From Asticcacaulis sp. MM231 (GTDB lineage: Bacteria; Pseudomonadota; Alphaproteobacteria; Caulobacterales; Caulobacteraceae), in contig NZ_OZ075108.1 of NCBI RefSeq assembly GCF_964186625.1, forward strand, positions 248,001 to 312,000: DNA of 64,000 bases. The letters run 5' to 3'. Of the stretch, positions 51,514 through 64,000 are shown piece by piece. The notes under the pieces were generated by a model that worked only from the letters and a program-made list of their open reading frames with translations, searched no databases and was not told the DNA's origin. Position 1 is the stretch's first letter; each line of letters begins with the position of its first letter. The translations under genes were made by a program, and so were the position numbers.

Positions 51514-53956
51514 TTAAGCGACGCTGGAGACCGTATCGTCGCTGCGATCGATCACGTTCAGTGTTTTCGTGTCTGCTTGAGGCTCAGCCGCGACAGGTTC
51601 GGATTTCCCCGCATCGGCCTGACCCGGCAGGTGAATTTTGAAGCTGGCGCCCTCGTTGGGTTCGGATTCCAGCGTGATCCAGCCCTCATGCAGTTCGACC
51701 AGCGCCTTGACCAGCGCCAGGCCTAGGCCCGGACCTCCGCGTTCACGGCCGATATAACGGTCAAAAATATGCGCCTGCACATGATAGGGGATGCCGCGAC
51801 CGGTATAGGCCACTTCCAGCACCAGATTGTCGCCGTCCTTTTTCGCGTTCAGCATAACCGCGCCGCCGCTGGTGGCGTTACGAATCGCGTTGCCCAGCAG
51901 ATGTTCGAGGCATTGGCCGAGGCGCTTGGCATCGACGCGCACCATGCCGGTCTCGACCACGCCGGTGTAATCGAACTTGACGCCGCGGGCCTTGAACACA
52001 TCGGTGAGCCGCAGACCAACCTCGGCCACGATATCGAGCAGGCGGACATCGGCGCGCGAGATCGACATCTCGCCGGCATCGATCTGAGCCATATCAAGCA
52101 CGTCATCGATCGAACGCGCCAGTTCCTGCGCCGCGCTCTGGATCGAATTCGAGGAAGGCCTTCTGCTTCGGATTGGTATCGGCCGAAGTCACCTGCGCCT
52201 GCAACAGTTCGGCATAGCCGACGATGGTGGTCAGCGGCGTGCGCAGTTCGTAGGAGACATTGGCAACGAAATCACGCTTCAACCGAACCAACTCGTTCAG
52301 GGCCTCATCGCGCGCCTCGATGGCCTTTTCAAGCTGGCGCGTGGCGGTGATATCGGAGAAGGCCACCAGCGTCGCGCCATCCGGCAGGGGCTGGGTGCGC
52401 CATTGCGCCAGGCGGCCATCGGAGATCTTGATCTCGCCGATTTGCGGCGCACGCGCCAGCGGATCGGTATCGGTGACGCGGGCCTTAAGCTCGGCCCAGA
52501 AGCCGCGATCATGAACCAACGGCAGGCACAGTTCGGCCAGATCGGCGAAGTCCATCACCGTAGTGATATCTTCAGGCTGCAAGGCCCAGAACTTGTCAAA
52601 CGCCAGATTACGCAGGCGGAGGCGACCATCGCTGCCATAGACCGACACGGCGTCGTTAAGCTGGTCGAGCGTCGATTTCTGTACCTGAATAAGCGCATTG
52701 AACTGCGCCTTGAGCTTCAGTTCGCCGGTCTTGTCGGAGAACAGGATCAGCAGGCCGCCCAGCGGATGCGGCTGGCGCACAACACGCAAGGAGCGGCCAT
52801 CGGGCAGGCTCCACATTTCATCGTCGGCCGTATGGGTCAGCCCGTAAAATTCCAGTTCGCGCGTCTTGAAGGCGCTGTAATCACCGGTTTCCGGCGAGCG
52901 GCGCTTCTGGCGCAGGCGATCGAGCCATTCGCCGTGCGTCGGACGCTCATCGAGCCAGGCGGCTTCCAGATCCCACAGCTTCTCGAACGCCCGGTTGCGG
53001 AACATCAACTGCTTTTCCGGCCCGAAGATTGCCACGGCGTCTTCCAGCGTATCGAGCGTTTCGTCGTGTGCCTTGGCGTGGCGCTTGAGCGCTTCACGGC
53101 TTTCCTCGGCCTCGGTGACATCGACCGCGTAGGCGCAGGCATAGGCATCGTTGAGCGGCTCGGCGATGACCTGAAAGGCGCGGCGCTGACCGCCGACTGT
53201 CAGCCAGCGGAAGCCTTCGCGGCGCGTCTTCTGCTCCATCGCTTCCATGACCAGGGCATCGGCATTGCGGTCAAGCGACAGGTTATTCTTGATGGCCTCG
53301 TCAAGGCTTGAGGCCTCGGCGGCCTTCAGCCAGGCGGCATTGACCCAGACGATGCGGCCATCACGCGCGCAGATCCAGCAAGGTGCAGGCAAATGCTCGG
53401 CCATCTGCGCGAACGGACCGGACGACAGCGAGGCCTTGGCGCCGGCAATCGCCAGCCGGATCCAGGCGGTGGCGCCCGACGATTTGCCCTCAATGATCAA
53501 GGTCATGCCGGCGAGCGTGGCGGCGCTGATACCGGCGATCTTGTTAGGCGGGGTTTCGGCGAAAACCTCGAAACGGCACCACTTGCCTTCGGAAATCAGT
53601 TCCTTGAGGCCCAGTCCGGCTTCTGCGGAGGTTTCGCCCAGCGCCTGGACCACCTGCGGTGCTATATCGGCACTGCTGTTGAGTTTGAGGCCGAGCGCTT
53701 CGGCGCAGAGGCGCAGGGTGTCTTCGCCCCAGACCAACCGCACCGTATCGCCTTCAACCGCCAGAAAGGCCTCGTCAAAGGCCGTGGTTGCGGCGTCGAG
53801 CTCGCGCAACATGCTTTCTTTGACGGTGAGGTCGGCTTTCAGCGTATCGCGGGCCTTGGAGAAGCGCATACGGTTGCGCAAGGCCAGCCACGTGGTGGAC
53901 AGGGCCAAGGCCAATCCGCCCGCTGCGGCGGTATAGGCAATGGAGGCTATGGCCAT
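51514..53956 (-). CDS. divL: DivL, tyrosine pseudokinase of the CckA-CtrA pathway, interrupted by one frameshift
   Basis: In Caulobacter DivL senses phosphorylated DivK and controls CckA, hence CtrA; it is essential. The protein starts with a membrane helix (about 5-25), then three PAS-like domains (about 190-500), DHp with VSYELRTPLTTI where Tyr569 replaces the usual His, and an ATPase-like domain. The frame changes near 52145: KAFLE must be followed by IQSAAQELARSIDDV, one base out; removing one T from GAATTCGATC gives LESIQSAAQ. The G1-box reads AYTGRGIP instead of DTGRGIP. Total about 813 residues (Caulobacter DivL 769). An essential gene makes a sequencing error the likelier cause of the frameshift. 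Confidence 0.88.
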
Positions 53957-54259
53957 GGTTTATCCGAACGAATCACTTAAGTTGCTACTATAGAGTAAGT
54001 TGATTCGCCTGTAAAAAGCGGTAAAGGCAAACTTAACCGCAATTCTTTTGGGCGGCGCAGGCATGGTTTTTTTCATGCCGCTGGTGGTCATGAGGAGGCG
54101 CTCAGCGCCTTATTTGCTGGTGTAACCCCATTTATACCCCCAATTTGCCATCAGGGCCGTGGACGCGGAGGTACAGTTGCGGACACTTCAGATGTAACCG
54201 GAGCAAATTCCCGTGCAGTTGGGGTTGGCAGGGACTTGGGTTTGTGATTTAAGCTTTGG
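53957..54259. other. Intergenic region at the boundary of the accessory island
   Basis: Upstream region of divL followed by non-coding sequence leading to the transposase fragment. Small dyads GGCATG/CATGCC (54057-54077) and AGGCGC/GCGCCT (54096-54111) are seen, otherwise nothing recognised. The left end of the transposon fragment probably lies within 54120-54259. Confidence 0.35.
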
Positions 54260-55171
54260 ATGTCTCGCACTCCTGAATCGGATGATGGTTTATCGCTTGC
54301 CGGGTTACGGCAGGTTGTTTCGACGCTCGTGGCGCAAGTTGAGCGGCTTCATGCAGAGGTTTCGGCGCAGTCGCAGATCATCGAAGATCAGTCTCGGACG
54401 ATTGAAGACCTGAAGCTTGCGGTTTCGGTTCGCGATGTGAAGATCTCTGAACAAGCCGACGAGATCGCCCGCCTGAAGGGTCTGCCGCCGCGTCCGAAGT
54501 TTCCAGGCAAACCGTCAGGGATGGAAAAGGCGTCTTCGAAGCTTTTTGGGGGCAAGGGTAAGGGGGGCAAGCCTGGTCGCGGATCGAAACGTGACAAGCT
54601 GACGGTAACGGCAGCGGTCAAGCTGAAGGCTTCAGACGTGCCGACGGGGTCGCGTTTCAGGGGTTATGAAGACGTGACGGTCCAGGACCTGCACATTGAG
54701 ACAGCGGTGATCCGCTATCGTCGCGAGCGTTGGGAAACACCTGATGGCAAGCGGATTGTCGCCGACATTCCGGCGGGTGTGATGGGAGGCTTTGGGCCGC
54801 AGGTGCGCCAGTTCATTTTGGCCGCCCATTATCAGGGCCAGGTGACGAGCGAGCGCCTGGTGTCGCTGTTGAACGGCATGGGGCTTGATATCTCGAAGCG
54901 CCAGGTGGTCCGCTTTCTGAACGAGGGTCTCGATGATCTGATCATGGAAGACCAGGAGGTCTTTAAGACGGGCCTTGAGACGGCGTCATGGATCAGTGTG
55001 GATGATACGGGTGCGCGTCATAATCGCCATGACGCCTACCCCTTCAAGTTACCGGAGTTCATCAAATATCTTAGCCTGACTGTAGCCGCTACTTTTACGC
55101 TGGTATGGATTTGCATCGGAAAGCCGTCAAATAGTTCACGCTCGACTCTATCGAACGCCTGCCCAAATTGA
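54260..55171 (+). pseudogene. IS66-family transposase (TnpC type), 3'-truncated
   Basis: The first about 255 residues match IS66 TnpC/ISBst12-type transposases: coiled-coil (about 15-75), a basic Gly-Lys linker (FGGKGKGGKPGRGSKRD), zinc-finger-like region, VRQFILAAHYQGQVTSERLVSLL and the start of the catalytic domain SWISVDDTGARH, which carries the first catalytic Asp. Soon after (near 55030) homology ends and the frame continues antisense to hipA1, so about half of the enzyme including the other acidic residues is gone. No tnpA or tnpB genes precede it. Confidence 0.85.
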
Positions 55172-56367
55172 CTTTCGATTTCCTGAAAAACAATATTGGT
55201 TAGTGTGGGACCAAGGCCTGCCTCCTTGGCTGTTTCCTGAAAATGGTAGCCCCGTATTCCAAGTATGTCGTAGTGACGGCTGTTGCCGACTGACATTGCC
55301 AGCTTGTAGTGTTTGTGTGGTATCTGTTTGTAATCGAAACTGGGCTGTGCCGTCAGCACATCGTAAAATGGCGTCAGCGAATATCTGGCACCCGGCTTCA
55401 GGAAAATGCTAAAATTTTTAGCGTGTCCATCGGTAGCGCCAATCAGCCAAAAAAGTATCTGAGATTTGAAAAACGCTTGCTGGTCTTTCTGTGGATTATC
55501 GCCGTCGCGTAGAATTCGGACGATATCAGTTATCTTTGGACCGCCGTGACTTTGATATTTCTGGCTCGGAGCTACGGATAGCGCTTGGCAGAAGTCTTCT
55601 TGTGGTAGCCTGAGCAGTCGACCATCTTTGGTCCAGCGCCGGTCGAATCTTTCTACTACAAGAACTTTTCTGTTTCCAAAGTTTGTGATGCTCGCTTTGT
55701 TTACGGTCAAACCGAAGGCTTCCATGAGCTTTAGGCAGTAGTACTCGTTTTCAACACTGTTAGACAGGTCGATCGTGCCAGTACTATTTTCAATCGTACC
55801 GATCTGCGGTTTGAGAATATGTGTTGTAGGTGTTGTTCCCAGCGGTTTCTTCCAACGATTTTCGTGCCATAGCAGGGCTGTTTTTTCTTGGGCACCTGCA
55901 ACCGAGATTCGAAATCCTTCTTCTGCATCGAGTCCAAGAGGGGCGCGCGCAAGATTGGCTAAGATTCCTTCGATATCGCTTTCTGAAACGTTTTCGCCTT
56001 CTATGACCTGTACTTGATCGGTCGTTTGGTCCTCGGGCAAGAATTGCAGGGCACCAACACAGTCACGTCCAATTTTGGACAGAAGGCTGTAAGAGTTGAT
56101 GCCTTCTGCGCCTACACGTTCCGCAACACGTCTACGGATATTGTCTCGATCTGGAAGTAAGTTTTCAAAAACTGCCTGAACGCTACTACCTCTATAGGCG
56201 CGCTCGTCCAGTGGAAGGGATAAAGATACGGGTAGCGCATAGTCCTTGGCAAGCCATGTAGGGTCATAACGAAACGTCGTCGCACCACTCGGCTCCTTTT
56301 CGAGTTGGCCGATAGATTGGTTGTTCAGAAATACGTTGAGAGGAACGTGTGACGGGCGACGAGCCAT
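55036..56367 (-). CDS. hipA: HipA-family serine/threonine kinase toxin, module 1
   Basis: HipA toxins phosphorylate tRNA-charging enzymes (GltX in E. coli) and slow growth. The 443-residue protein has the N-terminal subdomain (VFLNNQSIGQLEKEPSG, FENLLPDR), the Gly-loop/ATP region ISVAGAQEKTALL, PTTHILKPQ, the LPQEDFCQALS activation segment, and the catalytic and metal sites in IGATDGHAKNFSIFL and LTPFYDVLTA. Its final codons and stop lie in the IS66 fragment, so the native C-terminus may be altered. Coding is AT-richer than the core genes. hipB1 overlaps as TAATG. Confidence 0.93.
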   Translation of the reverse strand: MARRPSHVPLNVFLNNQSIGQLEKEPSGATTFRYDPTWLAKDYALPVSLSLPLDERAYRGSSVQAVFENLLPDRDNIRRRVAERVGAEGINSYSLLSKIGRDCVGALQFLPEDQTTDQVQVIEGENVSESDIEGILANLARAPLGLDAEEGFRISVAGAQEKTALLWHENRWKKPLGTTPTTHILKPQIGTIENSTGTIDLSNSVENEYYCLKLMEAFGLTVNKASITNFGNRKVLVVERFDRRWTKDGRLLRLPQEDFCQALSVAPSQKYQSHGGPKITDIVRILRDGDNPQKDQQAFFKSQILFWLIGATDGHAKNFSIFLKPGARYSLTPFYDVLTAQPSFDYKQIPHKHYKLAMSVGNSRHYDILGIRGYHFQETAKEAGLGPTLTNIVFQEIESQFGQAFDRVERELFDGFPMQIHTSVKVAATVRLRYLMNSGNLKG

Positions 56368-56615
56368 TAGAATATGTCCTCGATATCCTGGTTGTCGCGC
56401 GTTCTAGCTGTAATCATAATTTCCAGGTCTAGGGCGGCAAGGATATCTAACAGCGTTGCTAGTTTTGTGCCTTCCTGTCCAGTTTCGACCTCCGAAACTG
56501 TAGCTTGTCGGACGCCCGCTAGGCCTGCGAGCTCGCATTGCGTCATGTTCTTTGATTCGCGATGGCGCCGTAGGACCGAGCCGATTTGTTTCGGGGATCT
56601 AGCGAGTTGTTTCAT
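56367..56615 (-). CDS. hipB: HipB-family HTH antitoxin, module 1
   Basis: 82-residue Cro/CI-type regulator (IGSVLRRHRESKNMTQCELAGLAGVRQATVSEVETGQEGTKLATLLDILAALDLE) that should neutralise HipA1 and repress the operon. The frame extends upstream to 56726, but those codons run through the operator array; GGAG six bases before the ATG at 56615 fixes the start. The stop overlaps the hipA start (TAATG), implying coupled translation. Five operators precede it. Confidence 0.92.
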   Translation of the reverse strand: MKQLARSPKQIGSVLRRHRESKNMTQCELAGLAGVRQATVSEVETGQEGTKLATLLDILAALDLEIMITARTRDNQDIEDIF

Positions 56616-56629
56616 AACGGTCTCCATGA

Positions 56630-56761
56630 ACGCTTTATACGCCTCCGCGTATAAAGCGTCAATATGCGGTGCGGCGTATAGTTTTGGTATATACGCTCTT
56701 GCGTATAAACCGACAATATACGCCACGACGCATAAATAAAATTCATACGGTGTCGCGTATG
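56630..56761. promoter_or_regulatory. Five-operator array of hipBA module 1 with exact 27-bp period
   Basis: 18-bp sites of consensus TATACGC-N4-GCGTATA begin at 56636, 56663, 56690, 56717 and 56744, each exactly 27 bp after the last. Sites 1 (56636) and 3 (56690) are perfect dyads; 2, 4 and 5 are degenerate. The first is the core of a perfect 30-bp palindrome at 56630-56659 (13-bp arms around CTCC) lying just upstream of the hipB ribosome site. Confidence 0.85.
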
Positions 56762-57068
56762 TGGAGTGCGTTTGCCCGAAAAGGTAACGGATTAAACTGC
56801 AATAAGAGCCGCCGACTTCTCTCCGTAATTAACGCCTCGGCTGGGGCCTATATCGCCGCAGTCGGGCGCAATATGGTCAAGGGTGTTCGACACGCCAAAC
56901 CGCTACACCATCAACAAATGTCCGCGCGCATCTAGGTACCCATTCGCCCAAGGCCACAGGGGGTATGATTATTTCTTTTTGTAGAACAGTTCAGTTTTCT
57001 TACGTTGCTCGACGTAATGCTCCCGATTGTCTTTCAGAGCCTCGATCAGGTAGTCGATCCCATCTGTG
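56762..57068. other. Non-coding stretch with two gene remnants
   Basis: Between the operator array and the IS21 element. On the minus strand 56897-56935 matches the last codons of an HTH antitoxin gene (DARGHLLMV then stop), as at 63015-63040. The 3' part of the IS21-split reading frame occupies 56969-57068. Otherwise no gene. Confidence 0.5.
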
Positions 57069-57269
57069 TGCGAAATCCGATTTGATCCCGGCCACTGTTC
57101 CGATTTGATGTCGGCCGGCATTCCGATTTGAAGTCGGCCACCGTACCGATTTGAAGCCGGCCGGGTGTGAAGTAATATTGCACCGTAATATCCCTAACTC
57201 TCAGGCGCGTTTTGTTGGGTCAGCCACCGAGGCATAACTGTCTCCATGATCAATCATGGGGATACCGGA

Positions 57270-58811
57270 ATGCCTGCGAAGAGAGAGCTGACGATGAAGC
57301 AATTACGGCAGATTTTGCGGCTGACGCATGACGGAACGAGTGCGCGCGAGATCGCACGACGACTGGGCAGCGCGCGAAGTACGATCCAGGACAGTCTGAA
57401 GCGTGCAAGGGCGGCGGGGCTATCATGGCCTCTGCCCGCTGAGTTGACGGACAGCCTGCTTGAGAAGCAACTTTACGCCTGCAGCAGTGGATTCCAAGGC
57501 GCCCGGCGACGGCCCGAAGCCGACTGGCAGGCGCTGGTCAAGGAGATGAAGCGTCCGGGTGTCCATCTGATGATGCTTTGGGAAGAATACCGTGAGATCC
57601 ATCAGGATGGATACAGTTATAGCCGTTTTTGCGATCTGTACCGTGCCTTCGAGATGCGTCTGTCGCCGGTCATGCGGCAGGATCATGTGGCGGGCGATAA
57701 AGTCTTCGTCGACTATTCAGGTAAGAAGCTCGGCATTGTTGACCGCCTGACCGGAGAGATCCGTTTAGCCGAGATCTTTGTCGGCGTTCTTGGGGCGTCA
57801 AACTACACCTATGCCGAGGCCACCTGGACACAAACCCTGCCAGACTGGATCGGCGCACACGTGCGGATGCTCAACGTGTTCCAGGGCTCGCCGAGACTAG
57901 TTGTGCCGGACAATCTCAAGTCAGGCGTCAACAAGGCCTCGTTCTACGACCCCGAGATCAACCGAACCTACGGGATGATGGCGGCCCACTATAATATGGG
58001 TGTCCTTCCAGCCAGGCCCTATAAACCAAAGGATAAGTCGAAGGTCGAGGCTGGGGTTCGCTTTGCCCAGTCTTACATTTTAGGGCGCCTGCGCAATCAA
58101 ACCTTCTTCTCTCTGGCCGAGGCCAATGAAGCCATTGCGGAGATAATGGCGCGAATGAATGGGCGCATCATGCGCAAGATCGGGCAAAGCCGCCTGGAGC
58201 TGTTCGAGGCCGTAGAAAGGCCCGCTTTGGCCCAGCTGCCCGCGACGGACTACGAGTTTGCTGAGTGGAAGCTGGCGCGGGTTTCTCTGGATTATCACAT
58301 CGAGCTGGCGGGCTTCTTTTACTCAGTTCCCCATAAACTGATCCGGGAACAGGTCGATACCCGCCTAACAGCTCGGATGGTTGAGATCTTCCACCGGGGC
58401 AAACAGGTTGCTGTCCATGAGCGGCGGTACAATGGCCGGTCACATGGTACAAATCCGGACCATATGCCCAGCTCCCATCGCAGTTATGCGGAATGGTCAC
58501 CCGAACGGTTCAGCCACTGGGCTTTGTCCATCGGTCGCGAGACCGAAGGGCTCATCGTCGCCATTCTGGCCCGCCACCGTCATCCCGAGCACGGCTACCG
58601 AACCTGCCTTGGGGTCATGAACATGTTCAAAAAACTTGAACCGGCGCGGGCAGAACGGGTGGCTTCCAAGGCCGTTGCCATAGGGGCCTTCAATTACAAA
58701 AGCATCGCCTCGATCATCGAACACAGGCTGGATGCCACCGGCACGGATGACGGACCAGAATTCATCCTGACCCATCCCAATCTGCGGGGGCCGCAGTACT
58801 TCCTTCAGTAA
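57270..58811 (+). CDS. istA: IS21-family transposase IstA
   Basis: About 513 residues: N-terminal helix-turn-helix (MKQLRQILRLTHDGTSAREIARRLGSARSTIQDSL), DDE core beginning at DKVFVDYSGKKLGI (first Asp) with LVVPDNLKSGV (second Asp) and KDKSKVEAGVRFAQ (Glu), then a C-terminal beta domain. The frame is open from 57246; MPAKRELTMKQ at 57270 fits related IstA starts. Followed 18 bp later by istB. Confidence 0.93.
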   Translation: MPAKRELTMKQLRQILRLTHDGTSAREIARRLGSARSTIQDSLKRARAAGLSWPLPAELTDSLLEKQLYACSSGFQGARRRPEADWQALVKEMKRPGVHLMMLWEEYREIHQDGYSYSRFCDLYRAFEMRLSPVMRQDHVAGDKVFVDYSGKKLGIVDRLTGEIRLAEIFVGVLGASNYTYAEATWTQTLPDWIGAHVRMLNVFQGSPRLVVPDNLKSGVNKASFYDPEINRTYGMMAAHYNMGVLPARPYKPKDKSKVEAGVRFAQSYILGRLRNQTFFSLAEANEAIAEIMARMNGRIMRKIGQSRLELFEAVERPALAQLPATDYEFAEWKLARVSLDYHIELAGFFYSVPHKLIREQVDTRLTARMVEIFHRGKQVAVHERRYNGRSHGTNPDHMPSSHRSYAEWSPERFSHWALSIGRETEGLIVAILARHRHPEHGYRTCLGVMNMFKKLEPARAERVASKAVAIGAFNYKSIASIIEHRLDATGTDDGPEFILTHPNLRGPQYFLQ

Positions 58812-58829
58812 AAACAAAGGACATAGATT

Positions 58830-59582
58830 ATGCTGACACATCCAATCCACGACACACTCCAGGCGCTTGGCCTGACCGGCATGGCAAAAGGCTTCAAGGA
58901 GCTTGCCAATCAGCCGGAAGCTAACGGCCTCGACCATGCCGAATGGCTGGCAATATTGCTCGAGCAAGAGACCACATTGCGCCAGCAGAAGCGCTATGAA
59001 AGCCGAGCCAAAACCGCCAGGTTACGCCAGTCGGCCACCATCGAAGATGTCGACTACCGGGCTGCCAGGGGGCTGGACAAGTCCATGTTCCTGAAGCTCA
59101 CCAGCGCAGACTGGATCCGACGAAAGCACAACCTGCTGATAACAGGGCCATGCGGGGTCGGTAAAAGCTGGCTTGCCTGTGCTCTCGGTCAGAAGGCCTG
59201 TCGGGAAGACATGTCTGTTGCCTATCACCGGGCATCTCGACTGTTTACGGCGCTCGCCCTGGCAAGGGCAGATGGACGCTACGCGAAGCTTCTGAAGCAA
59301 ATCGCCCGCGTTGACCTGCTTATCCTCGACGACTGGGGCCCGGAGACCCTGACCTCAGATCAAAGGCGCGATCTGATGGAAATCGTCGAAGATCGCCACG
59401 AGGCAAAATCCATCATCGTCACCAGCCAGGTGCCGGTGGACCAATGGTATAAAATTATCGGAAATCCGACCCTGGCAGACGCCATACTCGATCGTCTCGT
59501 CCACAACGCCTACCGAATAGAACTCACAGGCGACAGCCTTAGAAAGAGGAAACCAGCACAGCCCGATACAGCCAGGGCTTGA
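58830..59582 (+). CDS. istB: IS21-family helper ATPase IstB
   Basis: 250-residue AAA+ ATPase related to DnaC. Walker A is GPCGVGKSW, Walker B LLILDDWG, sensor region IIVTSQVPVDQWY, and the C-terminal DAILDRLVHNAYRIEL is typical of IstB. Regulates target choice and IstA activity. Intact. Confidence 0.95.
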   Translation: MLTHPIHDTLQALGLTGMAKGFKELANQPEANGLDHAEWLAILLEQETTLRQQKRYESRAKTARLRQSATIEDVDYRAARGLDKSMFLKLTSADWIRRKHNLLITGPCGVGKSWLACALGQKACREDMSVAYHRASRLFTALALARADGRYAKLLKQIARVDLLILDDWGPETLTSDQRRDLMEIVEDRHEAKSIIVTSQVPVDQWYKIIGNPTLADAILDRLVHNAYRIELTGDSLRKRKPAQPDTARA

Positions 59583-59804
59583 CCCAAACCACGAACCAAA
59601 CAATCATGAATTACGACCCAACGAAATAAGCCAGGGGCGGCCGACTTCAAATCGGAACCATGGCCGGCTTCAAGTTGGAATGGGTGGCCGGCTTCAAGTC
59701 GGAATTAGTGGCCGACATCATCGGAATACGCAATCTGTGTTAAAAACAGTAATCAACTCCTTTGTTTCATCGGCTGGGTATCCTAAAACATAACCGACTA
59801 CCAT

Positions 59805-60380
59805 CACCCGAACGGGTGACTCAGCGAAAATTCGCGTCGCACTGGAGTTCGGCTTTGGATGGCCTGGTTTATGGGAGAGGCGTCGTTTTCGGCAATTTGT
59901 GAGAGGCAGGATAAAAGGGAGAGAGGTGCTTGGGGCTTTTCAGCGAAATTTATTCATATGTTTCAATTAGTTAAGTGCGTAAAGCGAGAGGTGCGCGGGG
60001 CCTATCGAGAGGTTTCCGGATGCTAAGCTCTTGTTTCTAATATGTATTTTGAGAGGTGCGGCTACACTTCAGGGGCAAATTTGTCCATCGCAAGGTAGGC
60101 GCCCTATTCTGCTTGGTTTACAGGCCTGCCATAGGCCTTTGGAGGGCCTGGCAGGCCTCTACCAGCAGCCTCGGACAAGAGGTGCAAGAGGTGCCTGGAA
60201 GGGCGCGTAAAGGGCTTGCGAGGCAACCCTGGCCTTTGCCGCGTTATTCCGAGGCATAGAGGCAACGAGTTGAGCAGTGAGCCTGTAAATCAAAGAAATA
60301 GAAAGAACATCGTAGAATTGGCGTGTTGCCATTTTCGACATCAAGCGCATGCTTCAAGGGTTGTCAGTAGAGGTGCAGAA
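59805..60380. repeat. Non-coding region with repeated AGAGGTGC octamer
   Basis: AGAGGTGC occurs, always on this strand, at 59922, 59987, 60052, 60178, 60187 and 60369, with a partial copy at 60008 and related GAGAGG at 59901. The last copy doubles as the ribosome site of the excisionase-like gene. TCACCCGAACGGGTGA (59804-59819) is a perfect palindrome. No other gene recognised. Confidence 0.5.
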
Positions 60381-60683
60381 ATGCCTGAACTCAATTCCAC
60401 GCCCGGAAAACTTGCCTATCGTATCGATGAAGCCGTTCAAGTTTCCGGCTTGGGGAGAACCTTCCTTTACGAATACATCGGCAGCGGCAAGCTTCCATCG
60501 ATAAAGGTTGGCGGCCGGCGCTTAATTCTGCATGACGATCTGTTGGCATTCTTGAAAGGCACCTCGTCGCCAAGCCCCGCATCTACGAATGGCAAAGCAT
60601 TGGAAGGCCGGAAAAGGTCTGCGGCTCGTTCTCAGGCGCCGCTACCGGGACAGATGGAATTCCCGTGGCCAAGAAGAGGATAG
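60381..60683 (+). CDS. Excisionase/MerR-like small DNA-binding protein
   Basis: 100 residues with a helix-turn-helix-17 type domain (YRIDEAVQVSGLGRTFLYEYIGSGKLPSIKVGGRRLILHDDLLAFL) as in phage and integrative-element excisionases, and a Pro/Ser/Arg-rich tail. GAGGTG five bases before the ATG fixes the start. No integrase is present in the window; it may be a relic of a mobile element, or a regulator. Confidence 0.8.
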   Translation: MPELNSTPGKLAYRIDEAVQVSGLGRTFLYEYIGSGKLPSIKVGGRRLILHDDLLAFLKGTSSPSPASTNGKALEGRKRSAARSQAPLPGQMEFPWPRRG

Positions 60684-60735
60684 ATATTCTGCCGCAAACG
60701 CGGCGCTGGCGATTTTGTCTAATATAAAGACGCTG

Positions 60736-60798
60736 CCGACACACCATACGCTGTAGCGTATAAACTCCTCATATACGCTACAGCGTATGGTGTGTCGG
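60736..60798. promoter_or_regulatory. Orphan pair of module-1 hip operators in a perfect inverted repeat
   Basis: Two 27-bp arms (60736-60762 and 60772-60798) are perfect reverse complements around a 9-bp loop. Each contains one TATACGC-N4-GCGTATA type site (60745-60762 and 60772-60789), starting 27 bp apart, the same spacing as in the hipBA1 array. It lies between the excisionase-like gene and the 3' end of hipA2, not in front of any gene. Confidence 0.8.
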
Positions 60799-60845
60799 TA
60801 ATCAGGGATAGGCAGAGACCGAAAGCTTTACCCCTAAGGCTTTCG

Positions 60846-62159
60846 TCATGGATATTCTTTGAGACGCCCTAGTATCCGCAACGCGTTGCCCTCGACACAT
60901 GTACGTGCTTGCTCCACAAGGGGCGCGATAGCGCCGGGATGGCTGGCGACATGCTCATAGGTTCTAACGCCGGCGCCCACTATCGCGTCAACCAATTCCT
61001 TGACCCGCAGACGTGTCTGGCGAGGATTATAGCCTCCGGTCGCTGCTATGGCATCCCAATGTCGGGCCGCGACGTCTTCCGGCTTTCTTTTTTTACCGTC
61101 AATCTTCTGCGCGAAATTCTGGTTGACATGTGGCCAAGGCAGGACGGTTGAGACGTCGTACAAGGGGGCCAATGCCCGTTCGCTGGCCAACAGAAGCGAA
61201 TAGTTCTTGGCATGGGCATCTGTGTTGGCGACGAGGATGTTGAAGATCAACTGATCAAGAAGCTTCAAACCGTCGCGTGATGGCAAATTCCGCCCCGTCG
61301 CCAGCAAGGTCGCTATCGTCGGACCAGGAACAGTGCCCGCCTCGTATTTGTTGACCGGAAAGACTCGATTCGCCTGAGCAAAATCCTCCTGATGTAGGCG
61401 TCTGATCTGACCGTCCTTGCGATAGGCACGATCATATCGCGCCACGGCCAGGGCATTTCGCGGGCCCGCTTTCAGGATGCTGACCTCTACTGTCTCAATG
61501 CCAATGGCTGCCGCCAGTGTCAGGCAATAAGCCTCGTTTTCGACGATACCTGGAATGCGATCATTGTCCGGCTTCACGATCAAGGTAGACGGCGCCCCGG
61601 TCTTGGGAATGGCCAGTATGTCGCCAGGCTTCGGCAACCCAAGGCGGGGCCGCCCCCCCGCATCCAGAACAGTCAATGTGGCCTTCTCTTGACCACCGGC
61701 CAAGGACAATCTTACCCCATCTTCCCCAGCCAGAAAGGGCCGCTCCTTCAGATCTGCGAAGTGACGCAAAAGCGCTGCCTCCGGATCTTCCAGTTGATAA
61801 AAAGTCTCCAGAGGCTCAAAGCGCCAGTCTTCGCGCAGAGACGGTGCACCGAAAGATAAGGCGCCGGCCGTGTCGCCACCGATTTCCCGCAAGATGGCGA
61901 TCGTGTCCTTGCGATCGACGCCAATAGCACGCGCCAATGTTGCCAGTTGGCGTTCTTCCGGTAGCAGGTTGGCAAGCCAGGGATGGACGGTGTCCGGCGA
62001 ATAAGTGTCGGCGGCAAGTGGCATCGTGAGGGAGATAGGAAAGGCGCCGCGTGACTCCGTCCAGCGCAGATCGTAGGCAAAGCTGATTGCTCCGTCGTTG
62101 TCGATCAACAGCTTGCCGACGGGAAACGCTTCATAAAAGACAGTGATCTCCTCGGACAT
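60846..62159 (-). CDS. hipA: HipA-family serine/threonine kinase toxin, module 2
   Basis: 437 residues. N-terminal subdomain with VFYEAFPVGKLLIDNDG and WLANLLPEERQLATLA, the ATP region LSLAGGQEKATL, STLIVKPDND, RLHQEDFAQAN, and catalytic/metal motifs NILVANTDAHAKNYSLLL and LAPLYDVST. Only distantly similar to HipA1 and with GC-rich codon use like the core genes, so the two modules have different histories. hipB2 ends one base before its ATG. Confidence 0.93.
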   Translation of the reverse strand: MSEEITVFYEAFPVGKLLIDNDGAISFAYDLRWTESRGAFPISLTMPLAADTYSPDTVHPWLANLLPEERQLATLARAIGVDRKDTIAILREIGGDTAGALSFGAPSLREDWRFEPLETFYQLEDPEAALLRHFADLKERPFLAGEDGVRLSLAGGQEKATLTVLDAGGRPRLGLPKPGDILAIPKTGAPSTLIVKPDNDRIPGIVENEAYCLTLAAAIGIETVEVSILKAGPRNALAVARYDRAYRKDGQIRRLHQEDFAQANRVFPVNKYEAGTVPGPTIATLLATGRNLPSRDGLKLLDQLIFNILVANTDAHAKNYSLLLASERALAPLYDVSTVLPWPHVNQNFAQKIDGKKRKPEDVAARHWDAIAATGGYNPRQTRLRVKELVDAIVGAGVRTYEHVASHPGAIAPLVEQARTCVEGNALRILGRLKEYP

Positions 62160-62160
62160 C

Positions 62161-62448
62161 TTACATATCCAAATCGTATGGCGAAGTGTCGGGTTGCGCC
62201 GGCCGTTCGCTATGGGCAGAGACCGACGCTAGCAGATCATAAAGATCGCTGCGCAGGGCTTGCAGGATGCGTGTGATGGTAGACAGCTTGGGGTCACGAT
62301 TGCCGTTTTCGAGATGCGACAAGGTGGCAATGCCTACACCAGACAAGCGAGACAACTCTTCCAGCTTGAGGTTCTTGGACAGGCGCAGGGCCCGTAAGGC
62401 GTGGCCCAGTTGCACCGGCAATGGATGGACGTCCGTCGATGAGGCCAT
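62161..62448 (-). CDS. hipB: HipB-family HTH antitoxin, module 2
   Basis: 95-residue Cro/CI-type regulator (LGHALRALRLSKNLKLEELSRLSGVGIATLSHLENGNRDPKLSTITRILQAL). AGGAG eight bases before the ATG supports the start. Four identical-type operators lie directly upstream, so the operon is expected to be autorepressed. Confidence 0.92.
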   Translation of the reverse strand: MASSTDVHPLPVQLGHALRALRLSKNLKLEELSRLSGVGIATLSHLENGNRDPKLSTITRILQALRSDLYDLLASVSAHSERPAQPDTSPYDLDM

Positions 62449-62459
62449 GATGTCGCTCC

Positions 62460-62624
62460 TTTATCGTTAGCGATAAATAAGCCTATTTACATCAGGAAAT
62501 CAAGGCCATTTATCGTCAGCGATAAATGATTGAGAAATTGAGCGGTGCGACGGTATATTTATCGTTGGCGATAAATGGTGTGGGGTAAGCCTATTTGAGA
62601 TGAATTTTTATCGCCGGTGATAAA
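62460..62624. promoter_or_regulatory. Four-operator array of hipBA module 2 with exact 49-bp period
   Basis: 18-bp palindromes TTTATCG-N4-CGATAAA begin at 62460, 62509, 62558 and 62607, each 49 bp after the last. The first three have perfect 7-bp arms; the fourth (TTTATCGCCGGTGATAAA) has one mismatch. The DNA between sites is not repeated. The first site begins within a few bases of the hipB2 ribosome site. Confidence 0.88.
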
Positions 62625-62711
62625 TCACTACGGGCCGAGGTATATTCCACACTGTTAATCCGTACACTGATTAAGTTTGGTATTGCGGTCCGAATTTAGC
62701 TCCGCCGACAA

Positions 62712-62994
62712 TCAGGCAGCAATCGAAAGCTTAACGCCTAAAGCCTTCGTAACTGCCAAAAGGGTCGAAAGCGTTGGATTGCCGTGTTCGCCAATAGCCT
62801 TATAGAGCGCGGCACGAGTGAGGGCCCGCACCTTGTGCGATCTCCTGAACGCCTTTGGCCCTTACAACATCATTCAAAGCTGCGCTGATGAGGTTCATAT
62901 CGCCCTATTCAAACGCAGCCTGTAAGTAGGCGGCGATTGCTTCCTGTCCATCTAGGTAAGCAACAGAATCAAATGTGCGCGTAGTCTTTTTCAT
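62712..62994 (-). pseudogene. Decayed addiction-module antidote protein gene
   Basis: Minus strand from an ATG at 62994: MKKTTRTFDSVAYLDGQEAI AAYLQAAFE then a TAG, continuing GDMNLISAALNDVV and VQEIAQGAG, and after a frame change LTRAALYKAIGEHGNPTLST and VTKALGVKLSIAA, stop at 62712. This is the layout of HigA-like addiction-module antidotes (TIGR02684 type). One in-frame stop and one frameshift make it a pseudogene. No partner toxin gene is left. Confidence 0.75.
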
Positions 62995-63014
62995 TGGGTT
63001 GCCCCGCGAAGCCG

Positions 63015-63260
63015 CTACGCCATCACCAAATGTCCGCGGGCGTCCGACCTCGGCGGCGAGACCGAGATTTGGACATCGCAGCCAAGGTCATTCAGAAATC
63101 GCATCAGCCTGTCGGTCGAATATCCTTCGAGACGGCCGTTGATAATGGATGACACTTTAGGCTGATCAATACGCAAAATTTTGGCAGCTTGGGCTTGGGT
63201 GAGCTTCCGCGCCTTGATCGCACTTCTGATATGAAGCGCCAGATTAGCTTTCGCTAGCAC
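63015..63260 (-). CDS. HTH antitoxin-like regulator, probably N-terminally truncated
   Basis: 81 residues from a GTG: LAKANLALHIRSAIKARKLTQAQAAKILRIDQPKVSSIINGRLEGYSTDRLMRFLNDLGCDVQISV, the XRE-type fold of HigA-like regulators that partner RelE-type toxins. Relatives have about 20-25 residues before LAKA (GNVFADLG region); here only PQNSFSAKVV is readable upstream before the transposon begins. Truncation by the IS next door is likely, and no toxin gene is present. Confidence 0.7.
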   Translation of the reverse strand: MLAKANLALHIRSAIKARKLTQAQAAKILRIDQPKVSSIINGRLEGYSTDRLMRFLNDLGCDVQISVSPPRSDARGHLVMA

Positions 63261-63343
63261 TACTTTGGCAGAAAATGAATTTTGAGGATTCCCCCGGCTG
63301 ACATTGCGTGATTCATAGAGAGCCAGCTTTAAGGAGACTGGCG

Positions 63344-64000
63344 ATGTCGGAACATTGGCGCGTAGATTTGGAAGATTGGTTGACGCCCTTCCTGGTGGCC
63401 TTGCGGCATAAGACCCGGATGCGGCTGTGCCCTGCCTATATTGCAGGCCTGATTGGCCCGGGTGACCGCAAGAGTGTCCAGCCGATGGCCGCCCGCGATG
63501 GCGAGTTTGGCTATGACCAACTCCATCATTTTGTCTCTGACGGCGTTTGGGAAAGTGGACCGCTTGAAGCCGTTCTCCTGAAGGAGGCCGACCGTCTGGT
63601 GGGGGATGATGCCGGTTATCTTGTCATCGATGACACGGCGCTGCCGAAAAAGGGCAGCCATTCGGTTGGCGTGGCGGCGCAATATGCTTCCTCGCTTGGC
63701 AAGACGTCCAACTGCCAGTCGCTTGTTTCGGTGACGCTGGCATCGCGCGAAGTGCCTGTGATGGTGGGCCTGCGCCTGTTCTTGCCCGAGAGTTGGACGA
63801 ATGATGTCGCGCGGATGAACCGGGCTCGGGTCCCGCAAGAATGCCAGGTTGCCCTGACAAAGCCGGAGATCGCCATTGAGGAAATTGATCGTGTTATAGC
63901 CTCTGGGGCCCGGTTCGGGTGCGTGCTGGCCGATGCTGGCTATGGGTCAAGCGGGCCGTTCCGCGAGGCCCTGAGCAAGCGCGACCTGTTGTGGGCCGTC
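63344..64000 (+). CDS. IS701/IS4-type DDE transposase, 5' part
   Basis: The first 219 residues of a transposase: MSEHWRVDLEDWLTPFLVALRH, the catalytic start DDAGYLVIDDTALPKKGSHSVGVAAQY, SVTLASREVPVMVGLRLFLPESWTND and CVLADAGYG, the second catalytic Asp. AAGGAGA precedes the ATG. The rest lies beyond the window. The element appears to have inserted into the 5' part of the neighbouring antitoxin-like gene. Confidence 0.9.
   Translation, partial: MSEHWRVDLEDWLTPFLVALRHKTRMRLCPAYIAGLIGPGDRKSVQPMAARDGEFGYDQLHHFVSDGVWESGPLEAVLLKEADRLVGDDAGYLVIDDTALPKKGSHSVGVAAQYASSLGKTSNCQSLVSVTLASREVPVMVGLRLFLPESWTNDVARMNRARVPQECQVALTKPEIAIEEIDRVIASGARFGCVLADAGYGSSGPFREALSKRDLLWAV

Follow-up and report, generated by a model that had tools for sequence, protein, structure and literature searches.

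Why five palindromes should stand at an exactly repeated distance in front of a small operon, what reads them, and what holds the distance constant are the questions raised by one locus in the 64-kb stretch of DNA that was analysed as a whole (64,000 nucleotides, hereafter the window). The five-site array is located directly upstream of two genes:

55036..56367, minus strand: hipA1, 443 aa, Couple_hipA and HipA_C domains
56367..56615, minus strand: hipB1, 82 aa, Cro/C1-type helix-turn-helix (HTH)

HipA1 contains both the Couple_hipA N-terminal domain (PF13657, 9.6e-27) and the HipA_C kinase domain (PF07804, 1.2e-53) of HipA, and matches PDB chain 2wiu_A ('PROTEIN HIPA', 8.4e-102), which we take to be E. 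coli HipA. The small HTH protein encoded just upstream, HipB1, matches PF01381 (8.4e-9) and a PDB chain named antitoxin HipB (4.6e-8); its start codon, ATG 56615, is preceded by GGAG 6 nt upstream, an alternative ATG is present at 56627, and its stop codon and the hipA1 ATG have one base in common. By alignment, the serine that is autophosphorylated in E. coli HipA (S150) corresponds to HipA1 Ser155, and the equivalent residue is a serine in 106/106 clade-I rows and 25/25 clade-II rows. HipB1 ends in a hydrophobic residue, Phe, as E. coli HipB does (Trp), and several predicted palindromic operators lie over the putative promoter. On these features, hipB1-hipA1 is predicted to be an E. coli-like HipBA type II toxin-antitoxin operon encoding a dormancy toxin, for which toxicity of HipA1, glutamyl-tRNA synthetase as its target and neutralisation by HipB1 would be expected.

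The sites of the array conform to TATACGC-N4-GCGTATA, are 18 bp long and are separated by 9-bp spacers. Together with the promoter elements read from the same sequence, they are:

56636..56653: operator site 1 (proximal), TATACGCCTCCGCGTATA, 0 mismatches
56663..56680: operator site 2, 2 mismatches
56690..56707: operator site 3, 0 mismatches
56717..56734: operator site 4, 2 mismatches
56744..56761: operator site 5 (distal), 3 mismatches; outer arms CATACG/CGTATG complementary
56634..56639, minus strand: putative -10 TATAAA, overlapping site 1
56657..56662, minus strand: putative -35 TTGACG, in the 9-bp spacer of sites 1 and 2, 17 nt to the -10
56711..56716, minus strand: possible second -35 TTGTCG, in the spacer of sites 3 and 4; TATATA 17 nt on (56688-56693)

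The sequence-only reading had described five such sites of graded quality at a constant 27-bp step, and both points hold: the starts at 56636, 56663, 56690, 56717 and 56744 are exact, and sites 1 and 3 are perfect, with sites 2, 4 and 5 weaker. It had also put 27 bp at about 2.6 helical turns, with adjacent dimers rotated, which agrees with the arithmetic (27/10.5 = 2.57 turns); neighbouring complexes would therefore sit on roughly opposite faces, an arrangement in which contact between them is still not forbidden, given bent DNA. The palindrome of site 1 extends to 56630-56659, with 13-bp arms. One further 27-bp step up or down from the array, there is no motif match within 3 mismatches. At up to 3 mismatches, the window contains 8 matches, the five array sites and three others, two of which (60745 and 60772) likewise stand 27 bp apart, against a mean of 1.44 and a maximum of 6 in 100 dinucleotide shuffles. 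The 4.65-Mb genome contains 9 matches at up to 2 mismatches, namely, sites 1 to 4 of the array (the 3 mismatches of site 5 put it outside this cut-off), a pair at 60745/60772 described below and three scattered ones, compared with 7 for the motif read backwards, so that the bare count is unremarkable. What exceeds chance is the clustering at a fixed step, not the genome-wide number of matches. The four spacers (AAGCGTCAA, GTTTTGGTA, AACCGACAA and AATAAAATT) are mostly dissimilar, and the array therefore does not resemble a newly arisen tandem duplication.

The conservation of the spacing was assessed in relatives of HipA1, which were found in 44 of 199 genomes of the family at 1e-30 (30 loci kept, including the locus itself), in 53 of 398 genomes of the order at 1e-90, and in a named collection, where 80 loci were kept among the matches listed (565 relatives); stretches for 20 further matches were added. 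In total, 152 loci were used, including the window, E. coli and nine distant homologues, and hipB was recognisable in all of them except for two (L028 and L029). Sequence of 200 bp upstream was available for 145 loci; removal of near-copies and of E. coli left 116, of which 108 are close orthologues.

Matching each of these 108 promoters to itself at every lag, without any motif, yielded a combined z of 36.6 at 27 and 24.0 at 54, along with 11.0 at lag 25, which we think is a side-lag of the A/T-rich site ends, and 7.5 at lag 81. The best single lag was 27 in 69 promoters, 54 in 17 and another value in 22 (for example, in L013). Lag 27 was not among the top eight in shuffled sequences, in the sequence 400-600 bp upstream (103 loci) or in the hipB coding sequence (108 loci); the upstream sequence gave 54 at z 3.3, and the coding sequence gave 81 at 8.2, with other multiples of three. 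Pairs of TATR-N10-YATA sites 27 bp apart numbered 220 at 7/8 outer bases, versus 0.35 per dinucleotide-shuffle set, and 85 at 8/8 outer bases, versus 0.0. Counted outward from hipB, 96/100, 77/83, 45/48, 1/3 and 1/1 of the successive intervals are exactly 27 bp; among the deviating ones, 26 bp occurs three times and 28 bp never. When the 27-bp step was imposed and 6/8 outer bases were demanded, in-register chains comprised five sites in 2 of the 108 promoters (one of them that of the window), four in 53, three in 44, two in 6, one in 2 and none in 1, with three or four sites accordingly present in 97; these chains are also the basis of the recognition-helix and promoter counts given below. The sequence-only reading had named sites without conserved 27-bp spacing at orthologous loci as a result that would refute it; this was not the outcome, and lag 27 dominates across the 108 non-redundant promoters.

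Across whole genomes, a pair of TATRCG-type motifs at the 27-bp step (up to 3 mismatches) is present in 18 of the 199 family genomes, and a control with the pattern read backwards detected 5 of the same 18 (G000, G061, G166, G190 and G193) and no others. The pair adjoins a hipA1 relative in 13 of the 18, and likewise in the genome of the window, which has an orphan pair as well. Two further pairs lie upstream of hipB (L277 and L294), the L277 sequence ending before any hipA position, and at L289 (G166) no hipB was seen within 1.5 kb of the pair. At L278 (G068, 1501-1813), a hipB that by eye closely resembles hipB1 is preceded by an exact inverted operator pair and followed by no visible hipA, perhaps a lone regulator. 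Arrays with the 27-bp step were also observed at hipBA in records named Bacillus sp. 2B10 (L086), Verrucomicrobia (L069) and Nitrospirales (L095), reflecting either wide transfer or misnamed contigs.

That the repeats were simply inherited from a recent tandem duplication of a 27-bp unit, with the spacing not selected, is very unlikely. The exact unit length speaks for it, as does the fact that 27 bp corresponds to nine codons, in a frame that is open in the window. However, the likeness of spacers is about the same inside one array (0.377) as across different arrays (0.361), neighbouring units match better when one of them is inverted than when compared directly, and the 27-bp step persists under quite different motifs, such as TAGACC and TATGATC.

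Even less credible is the reading of the array as coding sequence that lengthens HipB at its N-terminus by a 9-residue LYAxxY repeat. An ORF at 56367-56726, counted from a GTG, does cover three sites and part of a fourth without a stop, and similar open frames are found at L021, L022 and L026, but stops close the frame between array and hipB in 83 of the 105 orthologue arrays, and GGAG stands ahead of ATG 56615.

A third alternative, that the spacing is dictated by the geometry of the promoter hexamers and not by contacts between neighbouring proteins, is better founded, since a -35/-10 pair does run through the first unit. In the window, TTGACG-N17-TATAAA predicts a transcription start near 56627; a generic promoter scan, in which the -10 must end in T, did not report this promoter. 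Among the 105 orthologue arrays, at least 4 of the 6 TTGACA bases are found in the first gap in 61 and 3 or fewer in 44, and the outer end of site 1, taken together with two more bases, is TATAAT-like, 17 bases from the -35, the first four of the -10 bases being part of the operator motif used in choosing the sites. Gaps 2 and 3 are merely A/T-rich in these arrays, and no -35-like consensus occurs in spacers 2 and 3, the spacer of sites 3 and 4 included, yet the second and third intervals are 27 bp almost throughout. Because the upstream gaps are as strict as the first one, the promoter does not explain the ruler, and we consider this alternative improbable. The placement itself is informative: with a -35-like hexamer between the two proximal sites and a -10 over site 1, occupancy should block RNA polymerase.

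What reads the sites is indicated by their covariation with HipB. The operators of the orthologues vary (TATACGC, TATACGG, TATGCG, TATGCC, TATACCCC and others), and their fourth position follows the recognition helix. With RQAT or RQGT, this position is A in 241 half-sites and G in 34, and with RQET, RQEL or RQEM, A in 8 and G in 183; the two classes together cover 78 of the 105 arrays, an array being defined by at least two sites. The helix is unclear in 16 arrays (14 A, 87 G), seven of which have WQETIS, and the remaining classes are KT (7 arrays; 31 A, 9 G), QT (3 arrays, mostly C) and AS (1 array). This covariation is the best sequence evidence for HipB reading these sites. The rule is local to this clade, because E. 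coli HipB, with the helix KQATIS, reads TATCC. The sites are thus probably hipB operators with a selected spacing, given that the spacing is kept while the motif and the spacers drift, the motif tracking the HipB helix. Of the proposal that these are hip operators in a cooperative periodic array, the operator appearance and the selected spacing stand, and cooperativity over several sites was itself already known from E. coli. Polymerisation along five sites would be a further and more conjectural step, five in-register sites being present in 2 of the 108 promoters and three or four in 97. The promoter running through the array, the 49-bp array of hipBA2 and the pair at 60745/60772 go beyond that reading.

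The explanation that best fits these observations, and the one we consider highly probable, is that the array is an autoregulatory operator lattice embedded in the promoter of hipB1-hipA1. It starts from what is visible in the sequences: the array, the conservation of its spacing, its placement in the promoter and the drift of its specificity with HipB. In E. coli, HipB binds four operators cooperatively and bends the DNA by 70 degrees (PMC3376134), HipA dimerises in the HipA/HipB/operator complexes (PMC7029023), and HipA is a co-repressor (PMC3920265). By analogy with that work, each 18-bp palindrome would bind one HipB1 dimer flanked by HipA1 and bend, the 9-bp gaps would bring neighbouring complexes into touch through HipA-HipA contact, resulting in cooperative binding along the array, and occupancy of site 1 over the -10, with the -35 in the first gap, would exclude RNA polymerase and repress the operon. 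We infer further, purely by reasoning, that the perfect sites 1 and 3 would be occupied before the weaker ones and draw complexes to them until all five are covered; upon loss of HipB1, the lattice would collapse and the operon would fire. The spacing data suggest that the 27-bp distance is set by repressor complexes touching their neighbours.

The operators within an array are related in a further way. Comparison of neighbouring sites about the centre of the gap shows complementarity of the 4-bp core of 0.499 versus 0.337 (z 11.1; such z-values are too large, because positions in related arrays are counted as if independent), whereas the core of a single site is not palindromic (0.342 versus a baseline of 0.340), and there is no excess in the gaps (0.271 versus 0.306) or the outer flanks (0.273 versus 0.269). 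Inverted likeness is higher at one step and direct likeness at two steps; at three steps, the alternation is weak (26 versus 24 pairs). Random flips of sites did not reach the observed alternation in any of 1000 trials, either for the 105 arrays or for the 62 with HipB below 70% identity, the latter being the safer test. At least 16 of 18 positions are complementary in 19 of 261 neighbour pairs, compared with 0.5% for sites from different arrays. The effect is slight in the five-site array of the window itself. Perfect inverted neighbours occur in G068, L014, L047, L083 and L102, as well as in the orphan pair of the window:

60745..60762: orphan site with the same motif, CATACGCTGTAGCGTATA
60772..60789: orphan site, 27 bp from the 60745 site and an inverted copy of it

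Both orphan sites lie inside a perfect 29-bp stem with a 9-nt loop (60734-60800; -54.1 kcal/mol, z -10.7) between convergent ORFs. No Rfam match was found in 54000-64000. As a terminator, the hairpin lacks an obvious T-run, and as a part of hipBA2 (see below), the pair is missing from the 4.3-kb locus L163, which encodes a 94%-identical HipA2.

Such a pattern could arise if operators were kept alike by hairpin-templated (quasipalindrome) correction between neighbours, a process compatible with the operator lattice that we regard as possible, at rather less than even odds. The core being complementary between neighbours and not palindromic within a site, the spacers and flanks showing no complementarity, the alternation of orientation in both sets of arrays and the perfect inverted pairs all point to it. 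The same pattern, however, could be produced by alternation imposed by the protein, the three-step trend and the effect in the window array are small, and the support comes from comparing existing sequences. Among the causes of the inverted copies, we think that hairpin-templated correction is the likeliest, followed by symmetric contact across the gap. No paper on quasipalindromes in operators was seen, by title, among the matches listed.

A second operon in the window provides a different spacing:

60846..62159, minus strand: hipA2, 437 aa, Couple_hipA and HipA_C domains
62161..62448, minus strand: hipB2, 95 aa, HTH-like by eye
62460..62624: hipBA2 operators TTTATCG-N4-YGATAAA, starting at 62460, 62509, 62558 and 62607, an exact 49-bp step

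Across the genome (contigs C1-C3), the HipA_C domain (PF07804) is matched ten times at 1e-25 or better. In the closest relative of hipBA2, L163, the steps are 49, 49 and 48 bp, and several others have 49-50 bp. A motif-free search for repeated palindromes at lags of 20-70 was applied to 266 loci, of which 211 were usable, corresponding to 187 non-redundant promoters. Among the E. coli/HipA1-like loci (clade I), a significant pair was detected in 89 of 147 and none in 58; the best lag was 27 in 30, 54 in 42, 26, 52 or 53 in 4 and 28, 56 or 67 in 3 (67 being E. coli, 28 + 39), and ten further loci had scattered lags, chance matches included. A significant pair was found in 24 of 28 HipA2-like loci (23 at 48-50 and one at 39; 4 with none) and in 5 of 12 unassigned loci, all at 49-50 (7 with none). 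Where arrays are detected, HipA1-like loci thus have a step of about 27 bp (or 54) and HipA2-like loci one of 48-50 bp. Six ruler labels, set by hand from visible arrays, were placed on a 44-row HipA tree, where they change 5 times, as few as possible; the automatic palindrome test is less biased. In 28 arrays with the 49-50-bp step, the core is alike at 0.78 directly and 0.71 inverted, which is no fair control for the mirror relation because these pairs were picked for direct match.

Two candidate causes of the rulers were examined and set aside. HipA residues G22 and D291, which are linked to HipA behaviour in E. coli, are conserved in the 27-bp clade (105/106 and 103/106) as well as in the 49-bp clade (23/25 and 20/25) and hence do not explain the ruler. 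The columns of P86 and D88, to which a role in E. coli HipA is presumably ascribed, differ between the 27-bp and 49-bp clades. Constant helical phase does not serve as a general rule: at 10.5 bp per turn, steps of 27, 28, 39 and 49-50 bp all exceed a whole number of turns by 0.57-0.76, but the lags of a wider survey scatter. In that survey of 90 regions upstream of HipA_C matches (a subset of those listed), 16 were significant, with lags of 27 (four), 54 (two), 56, 49 and 50 (two), and otherwise 31, 40, 41, 60, 62 and 67, some of which are likely due to chance or coding sequence. Constant phase is therefore only a lead.

Several neighbouring features of the window are recorded here. Repeats of about 23 bp (TTCCGATTTGAAGTCGGCC-type) at 57076-57164 and 59640-59720 flank the ORFs 57246-58811 and 58830-59582, which to us look like an IS21-type istA/istB pair. 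The ORF 54260-55171 converges on hipA1 and overlaps its 3' end; it has no Pfam match and presumably resembles the N-terminus of an IS66-type transposase. A kinase-like ORF at 52103-53956, with SYELRTPL at the place of the usual His, is in our estimation DivL-like, and what remains of its protein apparently follows in a different frame near 52.1 kb, through mutation or sequencing error. In a plasmid search, 1250 records matched, none over more than 80% of the query; the matches listed, 20 of the 1250, all lie on hipA, one of these being unannotated.

A more general view can be offered tentatively, as a conjecture that we consider doubtful: HipBA systems would form one-dimensional lattices on DNA, with a repeat set by the HipA clade (26-28 bp for E. 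coli-like and 48-50 bp for HipA2-like proteins); the 27-bp lattice would be symmetric about every gap and every site, making neighbours inverted copies, and hairpin-templated correction would keep the sites of an array uniform even as their sequence changes along with HipB. How easily the toxin escapes in E. coli is believed to be influenced by HipA contacts that join complexes on the operators (PMC7029023). Roughly a hundred divergent operons keep the ruler to the exact base pair, which suggests that contacts of this kind are ancient and widespread; the two clade-specific rulers offer a direct handle on which protein surface sets the distance, and the orientation bias presents a case of binding sites co-evolving while the specificity of the repressor changes.

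Among the known systems, E. coli K-12 hipBA is similar in that hipB is preceded by four 18-bp dyads of the form TATCC-N8-GGATA, the closest of which starts 39 bp ahead of the start codon; cooperative HipB binding and HipA co-repression are known there. It differs in the half-site, in having four sites instead of five, and in the steps of 28, 39 and 28 bp, that is, two pairs instead of an unbroken 27/27/27/27 run, a variable and not a defining trait. The hipBA2 operon and other HipA2-like loci share the regular palindrome array upstream of hipB, with a step of 48-50 bp and motifs of the TTTATCG and TCTTMCCG types. In Legionella pneumophila HipBST (O1-O3), an 18-nt dyad covers the promoter ahead of a hipB, with two more sites besides, but PMC10653801 describes larger inter-operator gaps, a core that is conserved, and an occupancy that is possibly intermediate, unlike the cooperativity of E. 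coli. The PaaR2/YdaS region of prophage CP-933P differs as a lambdoid regulator pair without HipA. No title on spacing rulers of hipBA operators was seen among the open-licence papers listed, which is weak evidence of absence. Cooperative binding of HipB to several operators and the resulting bend are already known from E. coli; the strict clade-specific rulers and the tendency of neighbouring operators to be inverted copies of each other are new.
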